DNA of 43,818 bases. Source: Crocinitomicaceae bacterium (GTDB taxonomy: Bacteria; Bacteroidota; Bacteroidia; Flavobacteriales_D; Crocinitomicaceae). The stretch lies in contig JAKVAQ010000002.1 in assembly GCA_022447665.1 (NCBI GenBank), positions 1 to 43,818 of the forward strand. Reading direction: 5' to 3'. The stretch's first letter is position 1. Every line of letters begins with the position of its first letter. The translations under genes and the position numbers were made by a program. The notes under the pieces are model-generated. The model was not told where the DNA came from and ran no database searches. It saw only the letters and a list, made by a program, of their open reading frames with translations. Below are positions 2,127 to 35,332 of the stretch, piece after piece.

Positions 2127-4241
2127 TTAATAGTTTAATAGATTAAGGATTGCATCATTCACCTTATCAGCGTTCGGCAATAATTCTGCCTCTAAAGCTG
2201 AGTTCAAAGGAATCGCAGGCGTATCTACCGATCCAACAATTTCTACTGGCGCATCGAGCTTTTCGAAACAATTACGTTGAATCTTACCAGCCACTCCTAA
2301 AGTGAAAGAAGCTTCTCTTGATTCTTCTGTCACAAGCATAACCTTACCATGTTTTCTTGCTGCTTCATAAACTGTTTCCTCATCCCAAGGGCTTAGAGAT
2401 CTTAAATCAATAATTTCAATAAGTCCTTCATGGTTTTTAGCTGCCTCAAGTGTCCAGTAAACACCTCTTCCATAAGTAATCACCACCATAGATTCTCCTG
2501 CATCTACTTTTGACTGATCTGCTTCTTGAACAATTCTTGCCTTTCCAATAGGAACGACATAATCTTCCGATGGCTCTATGGTTACGGCACCTTCAGTGCC
2601 TTTAATTTTACTCCAATACAATCCTTTATGCTCCAACATTAGAACTGGATTTGGATCGTAATACGCTGCCTTCATTAAGCCTTTTAAATCCGCCCCGGTA
2701 GAAGGATAACAAACCTTAATTCCTCTAATATTAGTCACTACGGACTCAACACTTGAACTATGATAAGGTCCTCCACTTCCATAAGCACCAATTGGTACAC
2801 GAAGTACTGCACTTACAGGCCATTTACCGTTTGACAAATAATATGACCTACTTAATTCAGTAAATAATTGGTTAAGTCCTGGCCAAATGTAATCGGCGAA
2901 CTGCACCTCAACAATTGGCTTTAAGCCTACTGCAGACATACCTACAGTTGAACCAATTATAAATGCCTCTTGAATTGGCGTATTGAATACTCGATCATCT
3001 CCAAATTGCTGCGCGAGTGTAGCAGCCTCTCTAAACACACCTCCTAATCTTCCACCAACATCTTGCCCGTAAAGAAGTGCTTCTGGGTGTTTTTCTAAAA
3101 TCTCTCTAATTCCGAATAAAGCAGAATCAACCATTACCGTTGGCTTTTTACCAGCAGGTTCACGATCTCCTTTTTCCTCTGTTATTGGAGTTGGTGCGAA
3201 GTAGAAATCTTGTATACTCGATGTATCCGGTTCTTCTGCGTTACGTGCCTTATCAAACTCGCCAGCTACAAAGTGTGCTACTTTTTCTTCAATAGCAGAG
3301 AGCTCCTTAGCTGTAGCTCCTGCGTCTTTCGCCAGTTGTTTAATTTTTGGATAAGGATCTCTTTCAGAGTGCTCATCCAAATCATCTCTATACCATTCCT
3401 TTCTAACACCCGAAGTATGATGCCCTAATAAAGGCACTTTCGCATGCACCAAGAATGGTCTTCTTTCCTTTCGGATTGTCTCAATAACTTCTTGAATTGT
3501 TTGATACGATTCTTCAAAATCACTACCATCAATGGTACGAAGTTCTATCCCCTTAAATCCTTTTATATAATGTGAAATATCTTGTGCACGAATCTCTTCA
3601 GCATTTGCTGATATATCCCATTCATTATCTTGAACTAAGTATAAAATCGGAAATTGCTTTAACGCAGCCATTTGAAAGGCCTCCGAAACTTCTCCTTCTG
3701 TACAACTTGCATCTCCCAATGAACATACTACTACTGGATTTTCACCATTGTAGTCCTCTGCTATTCCTTGTTTTTCTTTATACTGAACGCCCATCGCGAC
3801 TCCAGTTGTTGGAATGGCCTGCATACCAGTTGCAGAGGACTGGTGTGGTATTTTTGGAAAATTATCTCTATTTAAACTTGGGTGTGAATAGTATGTTCTA
3901 CCCCCTGAAAAAGGGTCATCCTTCTTGGCAAAAACCTGAAGCATAATTTCATAAGGATCCATTCCTATACCCAACAAAATACTATCGTCTCGGTAATATG
4001 GAGCAACCCAATCCTGTGGTTTAAGCTGCATACCAAGGGCAAGCTGTATCGCTTCGTGCCCCCTCGAGGTCGCGTGCACATACTTTGATGTTTCTTTGGC
4101 ATTAGCCTCGTAAGTTTCAGCCATTGTTTTGGCTGTGCACATTAATTCAAAACCTTTTAAGATTGTTTCTTTAGAAGTTTTTATGCTCTTTTTCGATTTC
4201 TTATTTGTTGTTTTTTTTGACTTGCTAATTGTTTCAGACAT
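2127..4241 (-). CDS. Fused 2-oxoacid dehydrogenase E1 alpha/beta subunit
   Basis: A 704-residue fusion of the thiamine-diphosphate E1 alpha and E1 beta subunits. Residues about 28-350 are the alpha half, with the ThDP/Mg motif GDASCTEGEVSEAF at 176-189 and the downstream N in NEWDIS. Residues about 365-704 are the transketolase-like beta half (YGQDVGGRLGGVFREA and the C-terminal transketolase domain). The enzyme decarboxylates a 2-oxoacid and passes the acyl group to an E2 lipoyl protein. By family resemblance branched-chain 2-oxoacids are the likeliest substrate, with pyruvate or 2-oxoglutarate less likely. The first 25 residues are a Lys/Ser/Thr-rich extension. No E2 or E3 gene is in the window. 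A small membrane protein gene follows at 3 nt. A TAnnTTTG box precedes the gene. Confidence 0.92.
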   Translation of the reverse strand: MSETISKSKKTTNKKSKKSIKTSKETILKGFELMCTAKTMAETYEANAKETSKYVHATSRGHEAIQLALGMQLKPQDWVAPYYRDDSILLGIGMDPYEIMLQVFAKKDDPFSGGRTYYSHPSLNRDNFPKIPHQSSATGMQAIPTTGVAMGVQYKEKQGIAEDYNGENPVVVCSLGDASCTEGEVSEAFQMAALKQFPILYLVQDNEWDISANAEEIRAQDISHYIKGFKGIELRTIDGSDFEESYQTIQEVIETIRKERRPFLVHAKVPLLGHHTSGVRKEWYRDDLDEHSERDPYPKIKQLAKDAGATAKELSAIEEKVAHFVAGEFDKARNAEEPDTSSIQDFYFAPTPITEEKGDREPAGKKPTVMVDSALFGIREILEKHPEALLYGQDVGGRLGGVFREAATLAQQFGDDRVFNTPIQEAFIIGSTVGMSAVGLKPIVEVQFADYIWPGLNQLFTELSRSYYLSNGKWPVSAVLRVPIGAYGSGGPYHSSSVESVVTNIRGIKVCYPSTGADLKGLMKAAYYDPNPVLMLEHKGLYWSKIKGTEGAVTIEPSEDYVVPIGKARIVQEADQSKVDAGESMVVITYGRGVYWTLEAAKNHEGLIEIIDLRSLSPWDEETVYEAARKHGKVMLVTEESREASFTLGVAGKIQRNCFEKLDAPVEIVGSVDTPAIPLNSALEAELLPNADKVNDAILNLLNY

Positions 4242-4387: not shown

Positions 4388-6505
4388 ATGAAACATTATC
4401 TGATTACCCTATTACTTTTATTACCTTTTGTAATCACAGCGCAAAAAGAGCTAACGCTTTATGATGCTGTGATGAATCAATATAGAGATTTTTATCCTTC
4501 AGGAACTGCAGGCTTTATGTGGATTCCGGGTACTGATAATTATTCTGTTTATGATGCGAATTATCAATCACTTCTTCGTGGAAATGTTAAGAATGATGAA
4601 ACAGAAGTAATCATCACTACCGATGAGATGAACAAAGCAACAGGAGCTACATTCCGCTATTCAAAAATAGATTCATGGAAAGATGGGACGCATTTTTACA
4701 CTTCTGCTGAAGGAATGTATTATTTAATAGATACAGAAAATAAAACAGCTGAAATAATAGGCGGAACGCCAAGCGTGGCTGAGGAAGAATTTTTACATCC
4801 TTCTACAGGCGCTATTGCTTACAATGGAAATGGAGTCGGAATAATTGGTAAAGCGAACGAAGGTCAAAATGTAATTGATGATGAAAACGGATATGTTAAT
4901 GGTAAAGCCATTGCAAGAAGTGAATTCGGAATTACTACAGGTATTTTTTGGTCAAACTCAGGTAAATATTTGGGGTTCTACAGAAAGGATGAAAGCAATG
5001 TTGCAGATTACCCCTTATTAGATATAACAACTCCAACAGGAAGCTTGAACGCTATAAAATATCCTATGGCGGGACAAGGTTCTGAGCTTTCTGGTGCTGG
5101 AATATTTAATCGTGAAACAGAGAAAACTATTTTACTAAAACCAGAAGGTGATTCGGAAGATTACATGACCAATTTCGGTTGGAGTATGGATGATAAATAC
5201 GTGTTTATTGCGGAGGTTAATCGCGACCAAAACCACATGAAACTTCAAAAATATGAAGCAGAAACTGGTAAGTTCTTAGGCACACTTTTCGAAGAAAAAA
5301 ATGATAAGTGGGTAGAACCTGAAAACCCTCCATATTTTGTTTCTAACGATCAATTCATATGGTTATCGGAAAGGGATGGTTTTATGAATATGTATTTATA
5401 TGATGTTGAAGGGAAGCTTATCAAACAATTAACCAATAACGAGTGGGTAATTAAAGGCATTGATGGACATGATGACGCAGGTAACGTATATTTTCATGGA
5501 ACTGGTGATAGCCCTTTAGAAACACACTATTTCAAGGTGAACATTAAATCAGGTAAGCAAACGCAGTTAACCAATGAATCAGGAACACACCGCGTGTCAT
5601 TTTCCAGCGATTTCGCTTACATGCATGACGCATTTTCAAGTACAGAGATTCCGAACATCGAAACTATAAAGGATGCGAAAGGAAAAGTTAAAAGAACCTT
5701 AATTACCGCGAAAAACAAGTTGGCCGATTACAAAATTGGTACTGCAGAATTTGGAACAATTAAGGCGGCTGACGAAACTACTGATCTCCATTATAGAATG
5801 ATCAAACCAAGTGATTTTGACCCGAGCAAAAAATACCCCGTGCTCGTTTACGTTTATGGTGGTCCGCATGCACAATTAGTAACTAACTCATGGTATGGAG
5901 GAGCAAGTTTATGGATGTATTGGATGGCTGAGCAAGGATACATTGTTTACACGGTAGATAATCGCGGCTCTGCTAATAGAGGCTTTGAATTTGAAAGTGT
6001 AATCCACCGTAATTTAGGAGATGCTGAGATGGCTGACCAAATGGAAGGAGTTAAATTCTTAAAAGGACTTGATTACGTTCAGGGAGATAGAATTGCTGTA
6101 CATGGCTGGAGCTTTGGCGGTTTCATGACCACTTCGTTAATGCTTCGTTATCCAGGTGAATTCACAACTGGTGTTGCTGGTGGTCCGGTAACTGATTGGT
6201 CTTACTACGAAGTAATGTATGGAGAGCGTTACATGGATCGTCCAGAGCAAAATGAGGAAGGGTACAAAAAAGCACGTTTAATGAATTATGTAGATCGTTT
6301 ACAAGGCGAGCTGTTATTAATTCACGGAACGGTTGATGATGTAGTGGTGATGCAACATAACCTTGCACTTGTAAAGGCTTTTGTTGATGCCGGCGTACAA
6401 ATGGATTTCTTCCCTTACCCAATGCATCCGCATAATGTTAGAGGAAAAGACAGAGTGCACTTAATGGAAAAGGTACTTACTTACATTATCAAGAATAATA
6501 AGTAA
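4388..6505 (+). CDS. S9 family dipeptidyl-peptidase IV-like serine peptidase
   Basis: A 705-residue secreted peptidase. A signal peptide (about 1-18, ending FVITAQ) is followed by a DPP IV-type N-terminal beta-propeller (about 90-450) and the alpha/beta-hydrolase domain (about 480-705). The catalytic triad is visible: nucleophile Ser575 in GWSFGG, Asp650 in GTVDDVV, and His682 in MHPHNV. The YGGPHAQ segment is the usual strand before the oxyanion hole. It should release N-terminal dipeptides (X-Pro or X-Ala) from oligopeptides in the periplasm or at the surface, feeding amino-acid uptake. Its promoter region is shared with the E1 gene. The length is normal for bacterial DPP IV. A second S9 enzyme begins at 43281. 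Confidence 0.93.
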   Translation: MKHYLITLLLLLPFVITAQKELTLYDAVMNQYRDFYPSGTAGFMWIPGTDNYSVYDANYQSLLRGNVKNDETEVIITTDEMNKATGATFRYSKIDSWKDGTHFYTSAEGMYYLIDTENKTAEIIGGTPSVAEEEFLHPSTGAIAYNGNGVGIIGKANEGQNVIDDENGYVNGKAIARSEFGITTGIFWSNSGKYLGFYRKDESNVADYPLLDITTPTGSLNAIKYPMAGQGSELSGAGIFNRETEKTILLKPEGDSEDYMTNFGWSMDDKYVFIAEVNRDQNHMKLQKYEAETGKFLGTLFEEKNDKWVEPENPPYFVSNDQFIWLSERDGFMNMYLYDVEGKLIKQLTNNEWVIKGIDGHDDAGNVYFHGTGDSPLETHYFKVNIKSGKQTQLTNESGTHRVSFSSDFAYMHDAFSSTEIPNIETIKDAKGKVKRTLITAKNKLADYKIGTAEFGTIKAADETTDLHYRMIKPSDFDPSKKYPVLVYVYGGPHAQLVTNSWYGGASLWMYWMAEQGYIVYTVDNRGSANRGFEFESVIHRNLGDAEMADQMEGVKFLKGLDYVQGDRIAVHGWSFGGFMTTSLMLRYPGEFTTGVAGGPVTDWSYYEVMYGERYMDRPEQNEEGYKKARLMNYVDRLQGELLLIHGTVDDVVVMQHNLALVKAFVDAGVQMDFFPYPMHPHNVRGKDRVHLMEKVLTYIIKNNK

Positions 6506-6553
6506 GAAATACTCGAGATTCTCGACTACCAATAAATTAATTAAATTAGTGGT

Positions 6554-8737
6554 ATGTCGAGAATTCTGCTCTCTCTACTCTCATTTTTTACTGTTCTAGC
6601 ATTTGCACAGAACGGAGAGTTAACACTTACTTCTGAAACTATTGACCATTCGCAATCTTCGAAGGTTTTATTTTTTGAGGACAAAGAGAAAACGCTGAGT
6701 TTAGAAGAATTATTGGCGCTGCCTGATTCAGATTTTTTTACGGTTGACCTAGACATTCCCAATTTTGATTTTACGACCTCCAAGTACTGGGTTAAATTTT
6801 CTGTAACGAATAAAACGGAGGAAGATTATTTTATTCTAGAAACGGCACGTCCTATCTCTAACAAGGTAATTCTTTATGAGCTGGACTGTGGAATAGTTTC
6901 GAATTCCTATAAAAGCGGGGATGATTTTGCCTACGCCGAAAAAGCTATCCCTCACCCGAAAAACTTATTCCCTTTATTCATAGAACCTGGACAAACAAGA
7001 GATTATGTACTTGAAGTAGAAAGCGACGGAGAGGTACTGATCATGGAGATTAGAATCTTTGATAAAATTGATTTTTTCGAAGATGAGTATGCTTCTCAAT
7101 TTAGCTTCGGATTCTATTATGGATTAATGGCATTGGTTGTCATTATCTATTTCTTTTTCTTCGTACTCCTAAAGGATAAGTCCTTTCTGTATTATGTAGG
7201 ATATGTTCTTGCGCAAGGACTCCTCCAATTTAGCTTGGATGGCTTTGCTTTTCATATCTTCTTTCCAAGTGGAGGATATATTGCCAATCACTTCGTCTTG
7301 TTTACAGCAGGGGTTACCATTTTCGTGCTACTAAAATATGTACATGAATTCTTGCATCTGAAAGAGAAGCTTCCGAGAATGCATAAAGTCTTTATTGGTT
7401 GTCAGATTCTTGTATCATTAGGTGTTGTTCTTTCTTTGATTCCTGGAATAACATATGTCATAGCATATCCACTCATTAATGGCATATCCTTAATCAGTAT
7501 TGTACTTAGTGTTGTTGCCATTTACATTTTAATTTTCAAGGGCGAAAAAGTAGATCGTTTCTTCGCTGCTGCGTTCACTGTGCTTATTTCAGGTGCTATC
7601 ATATTTATTTTAGGAAACTTTGGAATTATTGGGGATGCTGAAACCGCTCAAACGGCCTTAAAAATATCTTCAGCTCTAGAGGTGGCAATATTGAGTATTT
7701 CCATGTCGAATAAGTATCGTGTGCTTCAGAAAGAAAAAGAAGCTGCTCAAGAAGCTGCACTAAAGAGTTTAGAAGAAAAGAACGCGTTGATGGATGACAT
7801 CAATACAAAGCTTGAAGCTCAAGTGAAAGAGCGTACCGCTGAAATAGAACATCAGAAAGAACAATTGGCAGAAAGTAATAAAGAGATTCTTGATAGCATT
7901 CACTATGCCAAAAGAATTCAAGAGGCAATTTTACCCTCGGCAGAGCATGTGCGTCAATTGCTTCCAAAATCCTTTGTTTTTTACCGACCTAAAGATGTGG
8001 TAAGTGGAGACTTTTATTTTGTAGAGAAAACGCTACCTAATCATGGAAATGAATTGGTTGTTTTTGCTGCGGTAGATTGCACAGGGCATGGAGTTCCAGG
8101 AGCCTTTATGAGCATTGTTGGTAGCAATTTCTTAAACCAGACTATTACAGAGCCTAAAGTGAACAGTACTGCACAAGCGCTGGATTTTCTGAACGCGGGT
8201 GTGAGTCATGCGCTGAGACAAGATAGAGAACTAAATGATACAACTGTGAGGGATGGTATGGATATAGCCTTATGTGGTTTGGATACAAAGAATAATATCG
8301 TGTATTTCTCTGGTGCAAAAAACCCTCTATATGTTATTAGGGAAGGAGAAAACGAGGAAGCACTAGGCTTTGATATTGGGGAGAAAAACAAACCACCATT
8401 AAAAGACGAGAATTCCAATTTACACCTCCAAGAATTTAAAGGAGATGCTCATCCAATAGGTGCATACGTTGACGATGAACTCAAACCTTTCAGTCTTAAC
8501 AAAGTTGAACTTAAAAAAGGTGATTTGTTATATGTTTTTTCTGATGGATTCCCTGATCAATTCGGAGGAGAAAGCGGGAAAAAGTATAAGTATAAAACGT
8601 TCAAAAAGTTCTTATTGTCAATAGCCACTAAGCCAATGGACGAACAAAAGGAACTTCTCACAAAAGAATTTGATCGTTGGAAAGGAGATTTTGATCAATT
8701 GGATGACGTACTAGTAATGGGGGTAAAAATCGACTAG
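6554..8737 (+). CDS. 7TMR-DISM receptor fused to SpoIIE-type phosphatase
   Basis: A 727-residue sensor with a signal peptide (1-19), an extracellular 7TMR-DISMED2-like beta domain (about 25-175, with the motif SKYWVKFSVTNKT), seven membrane helices (about 183-385), a coiled coil (about 390-450) and a PPM/SpoIIE serine phosphatase domain (about 465-727). Phosphatase metal-binding positions are present: Asp486 in SGDF, Asp508 in VDCTGHGVPGAFM, the later DGFPDQF, and a final DDVLVMGV. It probably senses an extracellular ligand and dephosphorylates an anti-sigma antagonist or other phosphoprotein inside the cell. The partner is not in the window. It starts 48 nt after the S9 gene and abuts the convergent lipoprotein gene with no gap. 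Confidence 0.92.
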   Translation: MSRILLSLLSFFTVLAFAQNGELTLTSETIDHSQSSKVLFFEDKEKTLSLEELLALPDSDFFTVDLDIPNFDFTTSKYWVKFSVTNKTEEDYFILETARPISNKVILYELDCGIVSNSYKSGDDFAYAEKAIPHPKNLFPLFIEPGQTRDYVLEVESDGEVLIMEIRIFDKIDFFEDEYASQFSFGFYYGLMALVVIIYFFFFVLLKDKSFLYYVGYVLAQGLLQFSLDGFAFHIFFPSGGYIANHFVLFTAGVTIFVLLKYVHEFLHLKEKLPRMHKVFIGCQILVSLGVVLSLIPGITYVIAYPLINGISLISIVLSVVAIYILIFKGEKVDRFFAAAFTVLISGAIIFILGNFGIIGDAETAQTALKISSALEVAILSISMSNKYRVLQKEKEAAQEAALKSLEEKNALMDDINTKLEAQVKERTAEIEHQKEQLAESNKEILDSIHYAKRIQEAILPSAEHVRQLLPKSFVFYRPKDVVSGDFYFVEKTLPNHGNELVVFAAVDCTGHGVPGAFMSIVGSNFLNQTITEPKVNSTAQALDFLNAGVSHALRQDRELNDTTVRDGMDIALCGLDTKNNIVYFSGAKNPLYVIREGENEEALGFDIGEKNKPPLKDENSNLHLQEFKGDAHPIGAYVDDELKPFSLNKVELKKGDLLYVFSDGFPDQFGGESGKKYKYKTFKKFLLSIATKPMDEQKELLTKEFDRWKGDFDQLDDVLVMGVKID

Positions 8738-30998: not shown

Positions 30999-33716
30999 TT
31001 AATCTTCCAAGTTAGGACTTAACCAACGTGTCATCTCCTCAAGGGATTTTCCTTTTCCTTCTGCTAAACGGGCTACTTGGTCCATCTTTATTTTTCCTAC
31101 CCCAAAATAGTGTGATTCTGGATGAGCGAAATACCATCCACTTACCGATGCAGCAGGCATCATTGCTAGAGATTCCGTTAATGAAACTCCAGTTATTGAA
31201 GTAGCGTCAAGAATCTCAAATAACCCCTCTTTTTCAGTATGATCAGGATTTGCAGGATAACCTGGTGCAGGACGAATACCGCGATACTTTTCTTTGATTA
31301 AATCTTCATTTGAAAGCGCCTCTGTTTCATATCCCCAGAACTCTTGACGAACTCTTTCATGCAGACGCTCTGCAAATGCTTCTGCCAGTCGGTCAGCTAA
31401 TGCTTTTAAAAGAATCGAGTTATAATCGTCATGATCTTTTTCGAACTCAGCAACCTTTTCTTGAATACCAAGTCCTGTTGTTACAACAAAGCCACCAACA
31501 TAGTCTTTAATCCCACTCTCTTTTGGCGCGACAAAGTCGGATACACATACATTACTTGCTTTTGCCGATTTCTTTATCTGCTGACGTAATCCAAACTGTG
31601 TATAAATTACTTTAGATCTAGTTTCATCAGAATAGATCTCAATGTCATCATCGTTAACCGTATTGGCAGGCCATAAACCAACCACACCTTTAGCAGTCAA
31701 CCATTTTTCATCGATGATCTTATCCAACATAACTTGAGCATCATCATAGAGTTTCTTCGCCTCTTCACCGATTTTAGCATCATCGAAAATCTTTGGATAA
31801 CGCCCTCTAAGCTCCCAAGTATGGAAAAATGGCGTCCAGTCAATATATTTTCGAAGTTCGGCCAAATCGTAATCAACGAATTCATGGCGTCCTAATTTAT
31901 TCGGAACTGCTATATCTTCGTTTTTCCAATCTATATTCAACTTTGCTTTCCTCGCCTCTTCGATTGGTAATAAGACTTTAACTTCTTTTTTCTTCGCGTA
32001 ATTAATACGAACTCCCTCGTATTCTTTTTTTATATCTTCTACAAATGCATCAGCATCATTGCTCAAAAGAGAACCCGCCACTGTTACTGATCTCGACGCA
32101 TCCAAAACATGAACTGTTTGTCCTTTTTTGTAATGCTCCTCAATCTTCACTGCTGTATGCACTCTAGATGTGGTTGCGCCTCCAATCAATAAAGGAATAT
32201 CCATTCCTTCACGCTCCATTTCCTTGGCCACAAATACCATTTCGTCTAGAGAAGGTGTAATTAATCCAGAGAGACCAATCATATCAACCTTCTCTTCTTT
32301 CGCTGCTGCTAAAATCTTTTCACACGGCACCATGACACCTAAGTCAATAATGTCATAATTATTACAGCCAAGCACTACTCCAACAATATTCTTTCCTATA
32401 TCATGCACATCCCCTTTAACCGTGGCCAATAAAATCTTTCCTTTACTAGCGTCGGTATCTGTTTTCTCAGCTTCAATATATGGCAATAAATAAGCAACCG
32501 CTTTTTTCATTACCCTTGCTGATTTTACAACCTGTGGTAAGAACATTTTTCCAGCTCCAAACAGGTCTCCAACTACATTCATCCCTGCCATTAGATTACC
32601 CTCAATCACTTCAATTGGTTTAGTAGCCGCTTGACGTGCTTCTTCAACATCTTCTTCGATATAATCCGCTATACCCTTCACCAAAGCATGGGTAATTCTA
32701 CCTTGTAAAGGTTCTTCCCTCCAGGAAAGATCAACTTTTCTTTCTTTTGCTACACCAGAAACAGTTTCAGAGAAAGCTAGTAAACGCTCTGTTGCATCAT
32801 CCCTCCTATCCAAGAGCACGTCCTCAACATGCTCTAAAAGGTCTTTTGGGATATCATCATAAACTTCCAGCATGGACGGGTTAACAATCCCCATGTCCAT
32901 ACCCTCATTAATAGCATGGTATAAAAATGCCGAGTGCATCGCTTCACGCACAACGTTATTTCCTCTAAAAGAGAAAGAAACATTTGACACACCCCCGCTT
33001 ACATGAGCACCAGGTAGGTTTTCTCTAATCCAACGCGTACCTTGAAAAAAGTCCAAGGCATTTTTACGATGCTCATCCATTCCAGTAGCCACCGGGAAAA
33101 TATTGGGGTCAAAAATGATGTCTTGCGGTGGAAAATTCACCTCATCCACTAATATTCGATAAGATTTTTCGCAGATTTCTACTCTTCTTTCATAGCTATC
33201 CGCTTGTCCAACCTCATCAAAAGCCATTACGATTACCGCAGCACCGTATCTTCTGATTTTTTTAGCTTCCTCCACAAACTTCTCTTTCCCTTCTTTTAAG
33301 CTAATTGAATTCACCACACATTTCCCTTGCACACATTGAAGTCCAGCTTCAATTATTTCCCACTTGGAAGAATCTATCATGATAGGAACGCGCGCAATGT
33401 CAGGCTCCGAAGCAATCAAATTCAAAAATTTGACCATGGCTTCTTTACCATCAATCAAACCATCATCCATGTTTATATCAATGATTTGAGCTCCGCCTTC
33501 AACTTGCTCGCGAGCAACAGAAAGAGCTTCATCAAACTCACCATCCTTAATCAACCGCAAGAATTTTCTTGAACCAGCAACATTGGTTCTTTCGCCAATA
33601 TTGATAAAGTTTAGTTCAGGGGTTACCTCAAGTGGTTCCAAACCACTCAATCGCATAAAGGGCAGATCGTGCCATTTATATTCGTACTTACCTTTATAGT
33701 CAGGATGATGTGACAT
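30999..33716 (-). CDS. metH: Methionine synthase, folate/B12/activation part
   Basis: A 905-residue protein holding the C-terminal three modules of cobalamin-dependent methionine synthase. The pterin-binding (methyl-THF) domain is about 30-300 ([16 protein letters not shown]), the B12 cap and binding domains about 330-580 with the DxHxxG cobalamin motif [10 protein letters not shown] (lower axial His438), and the SAM-dependent activation domain about 590-900 ([20 protein letters not shown]). It transfers a methyl group from methyl-THF to cobalamin and reactivates oxidised cofactor. The homocysteine/zinc domain is a separate gene at 34158; split MetH is common in Bacteroidetes. A QueF-like gene sits between the parts, ending 14 nt before this start. 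Confidence 0.96.
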
Positions 33717-33730
33717 GTCTTACTCTTCAA

Positions 33731-34165
33731 TTACATTAATACGCTCCAATTGTCGTCGCCGCTATGGCCAACCCAATCTTTAAACTTTTCGTTACCTCCT
33801 CTTGCTTCCCAATCAGAATCAATTGTCAGTTTTGAGCTAATACCTCCACGTGGATTACAAATCATCATAATTCTTAAGCGGTCTGGCTCATAAACCTCCA
33901 TTAAATGGTCATAAACGATGTTAATTAATCGTTCATACGAAACTGTAATATCTCTTAGGTGAAAAGAATACTCTTTCAATGATTTCAATTCAATTATCTT
34001 ATTCTTCGGATAGAACGTTAAGAAAATTGTTGCGAAATCTGGTTGTTCTTTCACTCCTAAAAATGTGAATTCTGGAATTTTAATTTTGATTTCATAGGCT
34101 TCCTTCGTTGGATTAGGTATTGCTTTTAGAATACTCTTATCTATATCTTGATATAATTTAGCCAT
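33731..34165 (-). CDS. QueF-like T-fold protein lacking the catalytic cysteine
   Basis: A 144-residue T-fold protein close to the QueF/preQ0 reductase family. Matching blocks are [16 protein letters not shown] (residues 31-49), [15 protein letters not shown] (58-72) and NPRGGIS (104-110). QueF needs a Cys in FTxLC, an Asp in QPDFATI, and His-Glu in the FHEDC segment (B. subtilis Cys55, Asp62, His96, Glu97). Here Cys is Gly37, Asp43 is kept, His is Tyr77, and the substrate-anchoring Glu78 is kept. The only Cys is residue 103, elsewhere. It is unlikely to form the thioimide needed for preQ0 reduction. Its start overlaps metH part 1 by 8 nt. A pterin-binding or folate-related role is suggested, not shown. 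Confidence 0.85.
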
Positions 34166-35153
34166 TCTGCTTTATTTCTAATTTATTATCTACTAATTCT
34201 ACCATTGCTTTGATATGCTCAGGTGTTGTACCACAGCAGCCGCCAACAATGTTTACCAAACCTTCATCTAGAAAGGTTTTGATTTGTGATGCCATCATTT
34301 CTGGTGTTTCGTCGTATTCACCCATTTCATTAGGTAAACCAGCATTAGGATGGGCACTTGTAAAAAACGGCGCCTTTTGTTTTAGCACTTGTAAATAAGG
34401 TCTTAATGCATCTGCACCTAAGGCACAATTTAAACCAACACTTAACAGGTTTGAATGTTGAACTGAAATTAAAAACGCTTCTGTTGTTTGACCGGAAAGT
34501 GTTCTACCACTAGCATCTGTTATTGTTCCAGAGACCATAATAGGTAATTCTGTGCCTTTTTCTTCTTGCGCCTCGTCAATGGCATATAATGCCGCTTTTG
34601 CATTCAAGGTATCAAAAACTGTTTCCACCAAAAATATATCGGCACCACCATCAATTAGTCCAGATACTTGTTCTTTATATGCTGTCACCAATTCTTCATA
34701 AGTCACGTTTCTAAAACCAGGATCATTAACGTCTGGTGATATAGATAAAGTTCTGTTTGTTGGTCCAATTGAACCGGCCACAAATCTTGGTTTATCCGGA
34801 GTCTTAGCAGTAAATTCATCACATACTTCTCGCGCGATCTTTGCTCCATGATAATTGATATCATAAGCAGCAGATTCTAAGTTGTAATCTGCCTGCGCTA
34901 TCGTTGTTCCACTGAATGTATTGGTTTCTACGATATCGCATCCTGCCTCTAGGTATTCTGCATGTATTGCCTTAATAACATCTGGTCGTGTCATTGAAAG
35001 CAAATCATTATTCCCTTTAAGCGGTGATTCATGATCTTCGAACCAGCCTTTTCTGAAATCCTCTTCTTCAAGCTTATAACGCTGAATCATAGTACCCATT
35101 GCACCATCAAGCACAAGCGTTCTTTCTTTTAATATTTCTCGCACATCTGCCAT
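34158..35153 (-). CDS. metH: Methionine synthase, homocysteine-binding part
   Basis: A 331-residue protein equal to the N-terminal module of MetH: a (beta/alpha)8 barrel that binds homocysteine through zinc. The three zinc ligands are Cys243 in GLNCALG and Cys306-Cys307 in [11 protein letters not shown]. It works with the separate folate/B12/activation protein at 30999-33716 to make methionine. It is the first gene of the operon, behind a SAM-I riboswitch, and overlaps the QueF-like gene by 8 nt. The ATG at 35151-35153 is preceded, at 1 nt, by a short A/T hairpin. Confidence 0.95.
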
Positions 35154-35170: not shown

Positions 35171-35202
35171 AGTGAGACCGGACTTATGAATCGTGATTCT
35201 AA

Positions 35203-35315
35203 CTTATCTCGTCTCACCGAAGTTTGACAGGAATTGGCACCTTTTCTCTATCTTTTTGAATTTGAGCAGGTTGCCAAGGCTTCATAGGGCCGGTCCCTCC
35301 ACCTTTCTTAATAAG
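35203..35315 (-). ncRNA. SAM-I (S-box) riboswitch
   Basis: The minus strand carries the SAM-I aptamer in order: P1 5' arm CTTATTAAG, then AAAGGTGGAGGGA, GGCCCTATGAAGCC, TTGGCAACC, and AAGGTGCCAATTCC, a UUCG-capped P4 and the P1 3' arm GAGATAAG. It binds S-adenosylmethionine and should repress the operon when SAM is high. It starts about 13 nt after the promoter and ends 49 nt before the metH ATG. A GTGAGAC in the P4-P1 region (35211-35217) can pair with GTCTCAC (35172-35178) downstream, a likely switching helix. Confidence 0.95.
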
Positions 35316-35332
35316 TTGCTCTAAAAGCACTA

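Follow-up and report, generated by a model that had tools for sequence, protein, structure and literature searches.

A Cys-less QueF-like protein encoded between two metH genes as a candidate methylenetetrahydrofolate reductase

The reduction of 5,10-methylene-tetrahydrofolate (methylene-THF) links the folate cycle to the methionine cycle. This step is normally carried out by MetF, a flavoenzyme that makes 5-methyl-THF from 5,10-methylene-THF. According to the available extracts of PMC11094777, the methylene-THF reductases (MTHFR), Mfr, and Mer are all TIM barrels in which a shared Glu helps convert methylene-tetrahydropterin to a 5-iminium ion that then accepts a hydride. QueF is described, in the available part of PMC5372742, as using NADPH to reduce first a thioimide and then an imine, with the QueF motif binding NADPH and Glu97 anchoring preQ0; sequences without the active-site Cys were excluded there as non-QueF.

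Here, we describe a Cys-less QueF-like gene from a Crocinitomicaceae bacterium. The window, which is the whole stretch of DNA analyzed (43,818 nucleotides of contig JAKVAQ010000002.1, assembly GCA_022447665.1), contains an ATG-start open reading frame (ORF) at 33731..34165 on the minus strand; its 144-aa product matches PF14489 at 63.1 bits. It is flanked on the same strand by the two parts of a split metH. The upstream part (34158..35153, minus strand) encodes a homocysteine S-methyltransferase of 331 aa (PF02574, 340.7 bits) that covers residues 11 to 331 of the 1234-residue methionine synthase model NF007024, while the downstream part (30999..33716, minus strand) encodes the rest of MetH, a 905-aa protein with pterin-binding, B12-binding, and reactivation domains (PF00809, PF02607, PF02310, and PF02965). 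A SAM-I riboswitch (RF00162; 81.5 bits, gathering threshold 44.4) at 35201..35317 on the minus strand forms the operon leader. An earlier note on this DNA had placed the gene between two metH genes under one SAM riboswitch, overlapping the upstream part by 8 nt and ending 14 nt short of the downstream part, and the ORFs together with the domain and riboswitch matches bear out all of these points.

This gene arrangement is not due to chance, because homologues 77 to 85% identical to the window protein, with conserved metH flanks, occur in 14 other genomes of the family. The second metH gene lies directly downstream of the QueF-like gene in all 14 loci, and the first is at least partly present upstream in 13, the remaining locus (L005) beginning at a contig end. 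Moreover, a scan of 14 related loci found a SAM riboswitch upstream in 12, the exceptions being L117 and L133, the latter of which is the metF locus of the window's genome. Some loci vary in their details: the upstream match to the first metH gene covers just its initial 33 residues at L078:5802-5900 and L008:1302-1400, with the remainder absent from the flank examined, and a gap of 866 bp separates the first metH gene from the QueF-like gene at L077:5135-6000, unlike in most relatives, with L016 being similar. The splitting of metH was dropped as an odd feature, since it is found across the family regardless of the QueF-like gene; 139 of 150 family genomes encode the reactivation domain, mostly within an ORF of about 900 aa, and they do so whether or not they carry that gene.

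The window protein belongs to the QueF family. It scores 89.3 bits against TIGR03139, the NCBIfam model for preQ(1) synthase, which is 2.4 bits above the cut-off of 86.9, and the same model matches 65/65 clade members at E<=1e-5. The match to Bacillus subtilis QueF (E=2.8e-16; about one-third identity) aligns Gly37 with the nucleophilic Cys (Cys55), Asp43 with Asp62, Glu78 with the substrate-anchoring Glu97, and Tyr77 with the catalytic His. The segment ELKSLKEY at residues 59 to 66 agrees with the NADPH-binding QueF motif, E(S/L)K(S/A)hK(L/Y)(Y/F/W), at seven of eight places; the seventh residue is Glu65, where the motif gives Leu or Tyr. These data uphold the earlier claim of a retained QueF scaffold with its Asp and Glu, as well as that of a lost nucleophilic Cys. 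The substitution of His by Tyr77 is real too, but it is no mark of lost function and was dropped as a sign of lost catalysis. Among 28 other QueF-family matches in the phylum sample (L021 to L048, excluding L019, a 15-bit match that is no QueF, and L020, a clade member), that position holds His in 1, Tyr in 16, and Phe in 11, making Tyr or Phe usual (27/28). The Cys is present in 27 of the same 28. A distant QueF-family protein outside the clade (L040:1480-1992, minus strand, genome G241) has Gly at the Cys position and comes from a genome whose QueC matches are all weak and partial (26 bits at best); this protein might represent a further QueF with altered function.

A scan of named genomes returned 239 relatives, the best 80 of which were analyzed. 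Within these 80, Gly37, Asp43, and Tyr77 are present in every sequence and Glu78 is present in 79 (the other having an X), such that the Gly and Tyr substitutions are conserved and the catalytic Cys was found in none. Cys103 occurs in 78 and is replaced by Phe103 in the other 2, and the invariant acids are E25, E32, D43, E59, D116, D118, and E126. A C-terminal stretch at about residues 113 to 126 and W140 are conserved in a clade-specific manner. Mean column identity is 80% over 65 clade sequences, and dN/dS is about 0.02 in the three pairs of genes for which it could be computed, other pairs being saturated; on these two grounds, the idea of a decaying QueF was dropped. By record title or tree label, which may be wrong for metagenome-assembled genomes (MAGs), the clade includes members from Bacteroidota, deltaproteobacterial lineages, Nitrospirota, Chlorobiota, Pseudomonadota, and Bacillota. 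A phylogenetic tree unites the 64 clade members (support 100/100) and separates them by a very long stem from seven other QueF-family sequences, a placement that calls for long-branch caution. The clade profile matched 208 of 395 phylum-sample genomes, but with scores above 250 bits only in the window's genome and G401; the others listed scored 69 bits or less.

Structural modeling gave a corresponding picture. The AlphaFold2 prediction, for which 65 clade members were used, reached a mean pLDDT of 84.2, and its best matches among solved structures are to B. subtilis QueF (Foldseek E=1.4e-10; 4fgc_A with Z 16.0 and an rmsd of 2.8 over 130 residues), followed by archaeal QueF-L and then GTP cyclohydrolase I. 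The structural comparison proposed in the earlier note thus returns the same fold. A fold shared with QueF by itself says nothing about function.

For preQ0 reduction, the content of the window's genome is informative. No second PF14489 gene, and hence no canonical QueF, was found there, and a search for QueC (PF06508) returned only partial matches of 28.5 and 21.9 bits in frames of 631 and 421 aa; QueC matches in three genomes with a Cys-bearing QueF score 228 to 249 bits. Because the window's genome has neither a second QueF nor a real QueC, a preQ0 role is unlikely for the window protein, and the preQ0 reductase assignment was dropped. Together with Gly37 in the best 80 of 239 relatives, these absences support the prediction that the protein does not reduce preQ0 via a Cys thioimide. 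When 25 clade carriers were searched for QueC, 24 had no match or partial ones of about 35 bits or less, and G059 had a 191-aa frame with two neighboring partial matches (63 and 35 bits) that may be a divergent QueC. Uptake is a possible source of preQ0 for cells without QueC.

Evidence for a different function comes from the distribution of metF, which was scored by PF02219, a profile that does not recognize Mfr according to the available part of PMC7857596. Among 150 genomes of the window's family, 15 carry the QueF-like gene, the window's genome included; G028 (27% identity, internal stops) and weak second matches of G070 and G088 were dropped from this count. metF is absent from 12 of the 15 carriers versus 10 of 135 non-carriers, and of these 10, six have no MetH reactivation domain and the other four are less than 90% complete. 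When the comparison is confined to good genomes with metH (114 family genomes being classed as good by completeness values), metF is missing from 9/12 carriers versus 0/95 non-carriers (Fisher p=6e-11, relatedness ignored). The carriers that keep metF are G025, G054, and the window's genome, which has an intact copy on another contig, and therefore metF and the QueF-like gene would coexist there. The non-carrier G046 belongs to the same genus as eight of the metF-less carriers; it possesses metF, and its metH pair is directly adjacent, with aligned ends 12 bp apart.

A second family, that of G552, has 9 carriers in 148 genomes after the exclusion of G686, G687, and G726, whose matches score 36 to 42 bits over residues 38 to 118. 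Here, metF is absent from 6/9 carriers versus 4/139 others (Fisher p=1.2e-6, relatedness ignored); two of the four metF-less non-carriers also have no metH, and G643 and G722 have it. The metF-keeping carriers (G544, G551, and G720) have everything in one cluster, in the order hmt-quef-metH2-metF. Separately, a 583-aa frame in G762 (G762:C67:13888-14742) matches PF02219 at 388.9 bits, which is far above other metF matches and has no counterpart in the nearest relatives; a fusion protein is one possibility, and contamination of the contig is another.

The best 80 of 239 named carriers include 43 without a metF match, 3 with only a broken metF, and 34 in which metF is present and was not seen to be broken (no internal stops in the tabulated matches, which were not read individually; G567 has only a partial match of 95 bits). 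The metH neighborhood that is conserved in the window's family extends to only 38 of these 80 loci, with no metH in the examined flank of the other 42. Loci with metH divide into 29 whose genome lacks metF, 3 with a broken copy, and 6 that retain it, metF lying next to metH in three of these (L066, L084, and L090); loci without metH divide into 14 lacking metF and 28 retaining it. The broken copies, compared with the intact metF of carrier G736 (L050), belong to G746, G755, and G747 (loci L060, L075, and L061) and contain 3, 6, and 8 in-frame stops, respectively, with frame breaks in two. These three loci keep both metH frames open, and their QueF-like genes evolve under purifying selection, with dN values of 0.026, 0.032, and 0.009 versus dS values of 1.397, 1.727, and 0.381. 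Carrier counts are not independent of each other, because the named carriers overlap those of the family surveys: L071, L073, and L076 lie in G632, G731, and G696; G741 and G025 share metF coordinates; and G011 and L049 (Crocinitomix algicola, a metF-less isolate) are, judging by coordinates, one genome. Also, carriers and metF loss are clustered by lineage, and many of the genomes are MAGs.

Outside the window's family, several neighborhoods again contain methionine or folate genes. For instance, a Halanaerobiales MAG (L127) has a SAM riboswitch, metH, and quef, and in the metF-less isolate Pleionea sediminis (L117) quef sits beside a full-length metH, where a SAM riboswitch was looked for and not found. 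In G401 (L140), the order is SAM riboswitch, a PF01053 gene (Cys/Met-metabolism PLP enzyme), quef, and homoserine dehydrogenase, and metF is kept. In a Bacteroidales MAG that also keeps metF (L115), quef lies between nrdD and a cobalamin riboswitch with metE; this locus has two cobalamin riboswitches, at 3506-3718 before nrdD-quef and at 6471-6690 before metE. ThyX uses methylene-THF, and thyX directly precedes quef in 10 of the best 80 of 239 loci, all 10 with a metF match (the L083 copy was called by profile and the others by BLAST cluster). Away from metH, a methionine or folate gene is not evident beside quef in most loci; neighbors there include rlmD, a class II tRNA synthetase, and a lumazine-binding protein, and a riboswitch scan of 26 of these loci found none in 24 (14/14 and 10/12).

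On the basis of metF loss and gene context, we propose that the QueF-like protein is probably a flavin-free, NADPH-dependent 5,10-methylene-THF reductase on the QueF fold, which replaces MetF and feeds its product to MetH. The earlier suggestion of a folate or pterin role linked to MetH is well supported by the same evidence, and our prediction narrows it to methylene-THF reduction in MetF's place. MetH here needs methyl-folate, since it has a pterin-binding domain. We also lean toward a broader view of the clade as an independently evolved, non-TIM-barrel methylene-tetrahydropterin reductase, a small flavin-free T-fold protein derived from a nitrile reductase by loss of the nucleophile, that moved between phyla and took over from MetF on more than one occasion, the metF pseudogenes being copies still in the course of decay.

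What we observe is the fold, the residues, the operon with its riboswitch, the loss and decay of metF among carriers, and the absence from the window's genome of a real QueC; from these we infer the substrate, cofactor, direction, and residue roles as follows. A branch of the QueF family would have changed its substrate from preQ0 to a reduced folate, converting 5,10-methylene-THF and NADPH to 5-methyl-THF for the MetH encoded on both sides. Glu78, the counterpart of B. subtilis Glu97, would grip the 2-amino-4-oxopyrimidine edge of the pterin as Glu97 does that of deazaguanine, and a pocket acid (Asp43 or another invariant acid) might open the imidazolidine ring to give the N5-iminium ion. NADPH bound at the largely retained QueF motif would then pass one hydride directly to this ion, in a folate site that may be shaped by the 113 to 126 stretch and W140. 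A covalent Cys adduct would be dispensable, because the second half-reaction of QueF already transfers a hydride to an imine, and this would explain the change from Cys to Gly.

Several observations stand against the reductase reading. metF is intact in the window's genome, G025, and G054, and a metF match is present in 34 of the best 80 of 239 carriers, including the 10 with thyX and G401; many loci have no methionine or folate neighbor or riboswitch; and G643 and G722 have metH and no metF without being carriers. The many carriers that keep metF may also indicate that some clade members have another function.

Alternative explanations also need to be considered. The protein could be a non-catalytic, folate-binding partner of MetH that supplies or holds 5-methyl-THF or protects the cobalamin domain. 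Its position between two metH genes fits such a role, as does the pterin binding by T-fold proteins mentioned in the available part of PMC5372742, but the 42 of 80 loci (best 80 of 239) without metH in the examined flank and the NADPH motif, retained at seven of eight places, argue against it, and it leaves the loss and decay of metF in carriers unexplained; we regard it as unlikely. A different folate or one-carbon enzyme might instead bypass MetF, e.g., through a methenyl-, formyl-, or methyl-folate step or direct cobalamin methylation, given that links to thyX, metE, metH, and metF indicate a one-carbon role and not a reaction. Nevertheless, MetH and MetE require 5-methyl-THF, of which MetF is described as the only known source in the available part of PMC7857596. 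The same reaction is therefore the simplest replacement, and a different one has, in our estimate, a similarly small chance of being correct.

It is also conceivable that metF loss and the QueF-like gene merely travel together, with the cells served by a known but undetected MTHFR, such as Mfr, or by methyl-folate uptake. Mfr would escape the profile used here, and carriers do cluster by lineage. Against this, the pattern appears in two families, plus metF-less carriers labeled Gammaproteobacteria (L117) and Halanaerobiales (L127); the best tree of the QueF-like gene requires a minimum of 8 switches in metF state, with 2 forced by starred branches; and the first Mfr search round, in the available part of PMC7857596, found Mfr in Actinobacteria only. 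Co-travel is thus quite improbable. A true reductase of preQ0 or another deazapurine, with an alternative nucleophile such as Cys103, would account for a QueF-family score that reaches the curated cut-off and for the near-constancy of Cys103 (78/80 of the best 80 of 239), but the 2/80 relatives with Phe103, the absence of a second QueF and a real QueC from the window's genome, and evident neighbor links to methionine and folate genes rather than queuosine genes make it very improbable. Finally, the NADPH motif, the pterin-type pocket, and the thyX neighbor would suit a replacement dihydrofolate reductase; because folA (PF00186) is present in 145/150 family genomes and 14/15 carriers, the exception being 67% complete, this enzyme is not the missing step, and the candidate was dropped as having almost no chance of being right.

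If the methylene-THF reductase reading is true, the QueF fold would provide a second, unrelated solution to the MetF step, next to the TIM-barrel enzymes MTHFR (MetF), Mfr, and Mer described in the extracts of PMC11094777. It would also explain methionine synthesis in metF-less bacteria with a methyl-folate-dependent MetH, correct the annotation given by a preQ1 synthase model that also matches the clade, and show how losing the nucleophile can turn a covalent nitrile reductase into a folate reductase. In the open-access literature, we recognized no description of the clade and found no paper containing both "QueF" and "methylenetetrahydrofolate reductase"; an earlier account elsewhere is possible.

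Compared with known systems, the proposed enzyme resembles different proteins in different respects. It would share its reaction with FAD-dependent MetF (PF02219), which is encoded in the same cluster in G544, G551, and G720 and lost or broken in many carriers. MetF is a TIM barrel of about 310 aa, whereas the window protein is a T-fold of 144 aa with no PF02219 match in a domain profile search and no flavin expected. With the flavin-independent mycobacterial Mfr, it would share direct hydride transfer from NAD(P)H to the 5-iminium, but Mfr is a TIM barrel too (available extracts of PMC11094777; compared by description only, not by sequence). Unimodular QueF, the NADPH-dependent preQ0 reductase of B. 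subtilis (PDB 4fgc and 4f8b), is like the window protein in fold, Asp, anchoring Glu, and the NADPH motif except for its seventh residue. That enzyme has the catalytic Cys, whereas the window clade has Gly, a separate branch on a long stem, its own conserved residues at about 113 to 126 and W140, a methionine and folate context, and no QueC in the window's genome. The archaeosine synthase QueF-L (PDB 5jyx and 5k0p; fold match Z 13.9) is likewise a QueF-family protein with a changed reaction. It is 10% identical, forms a covalent thioimide (as stated in the 5jyx title), and acts in tRNA modification, whereas the window protein has Gly37 at the Cys position and would act on a folate.
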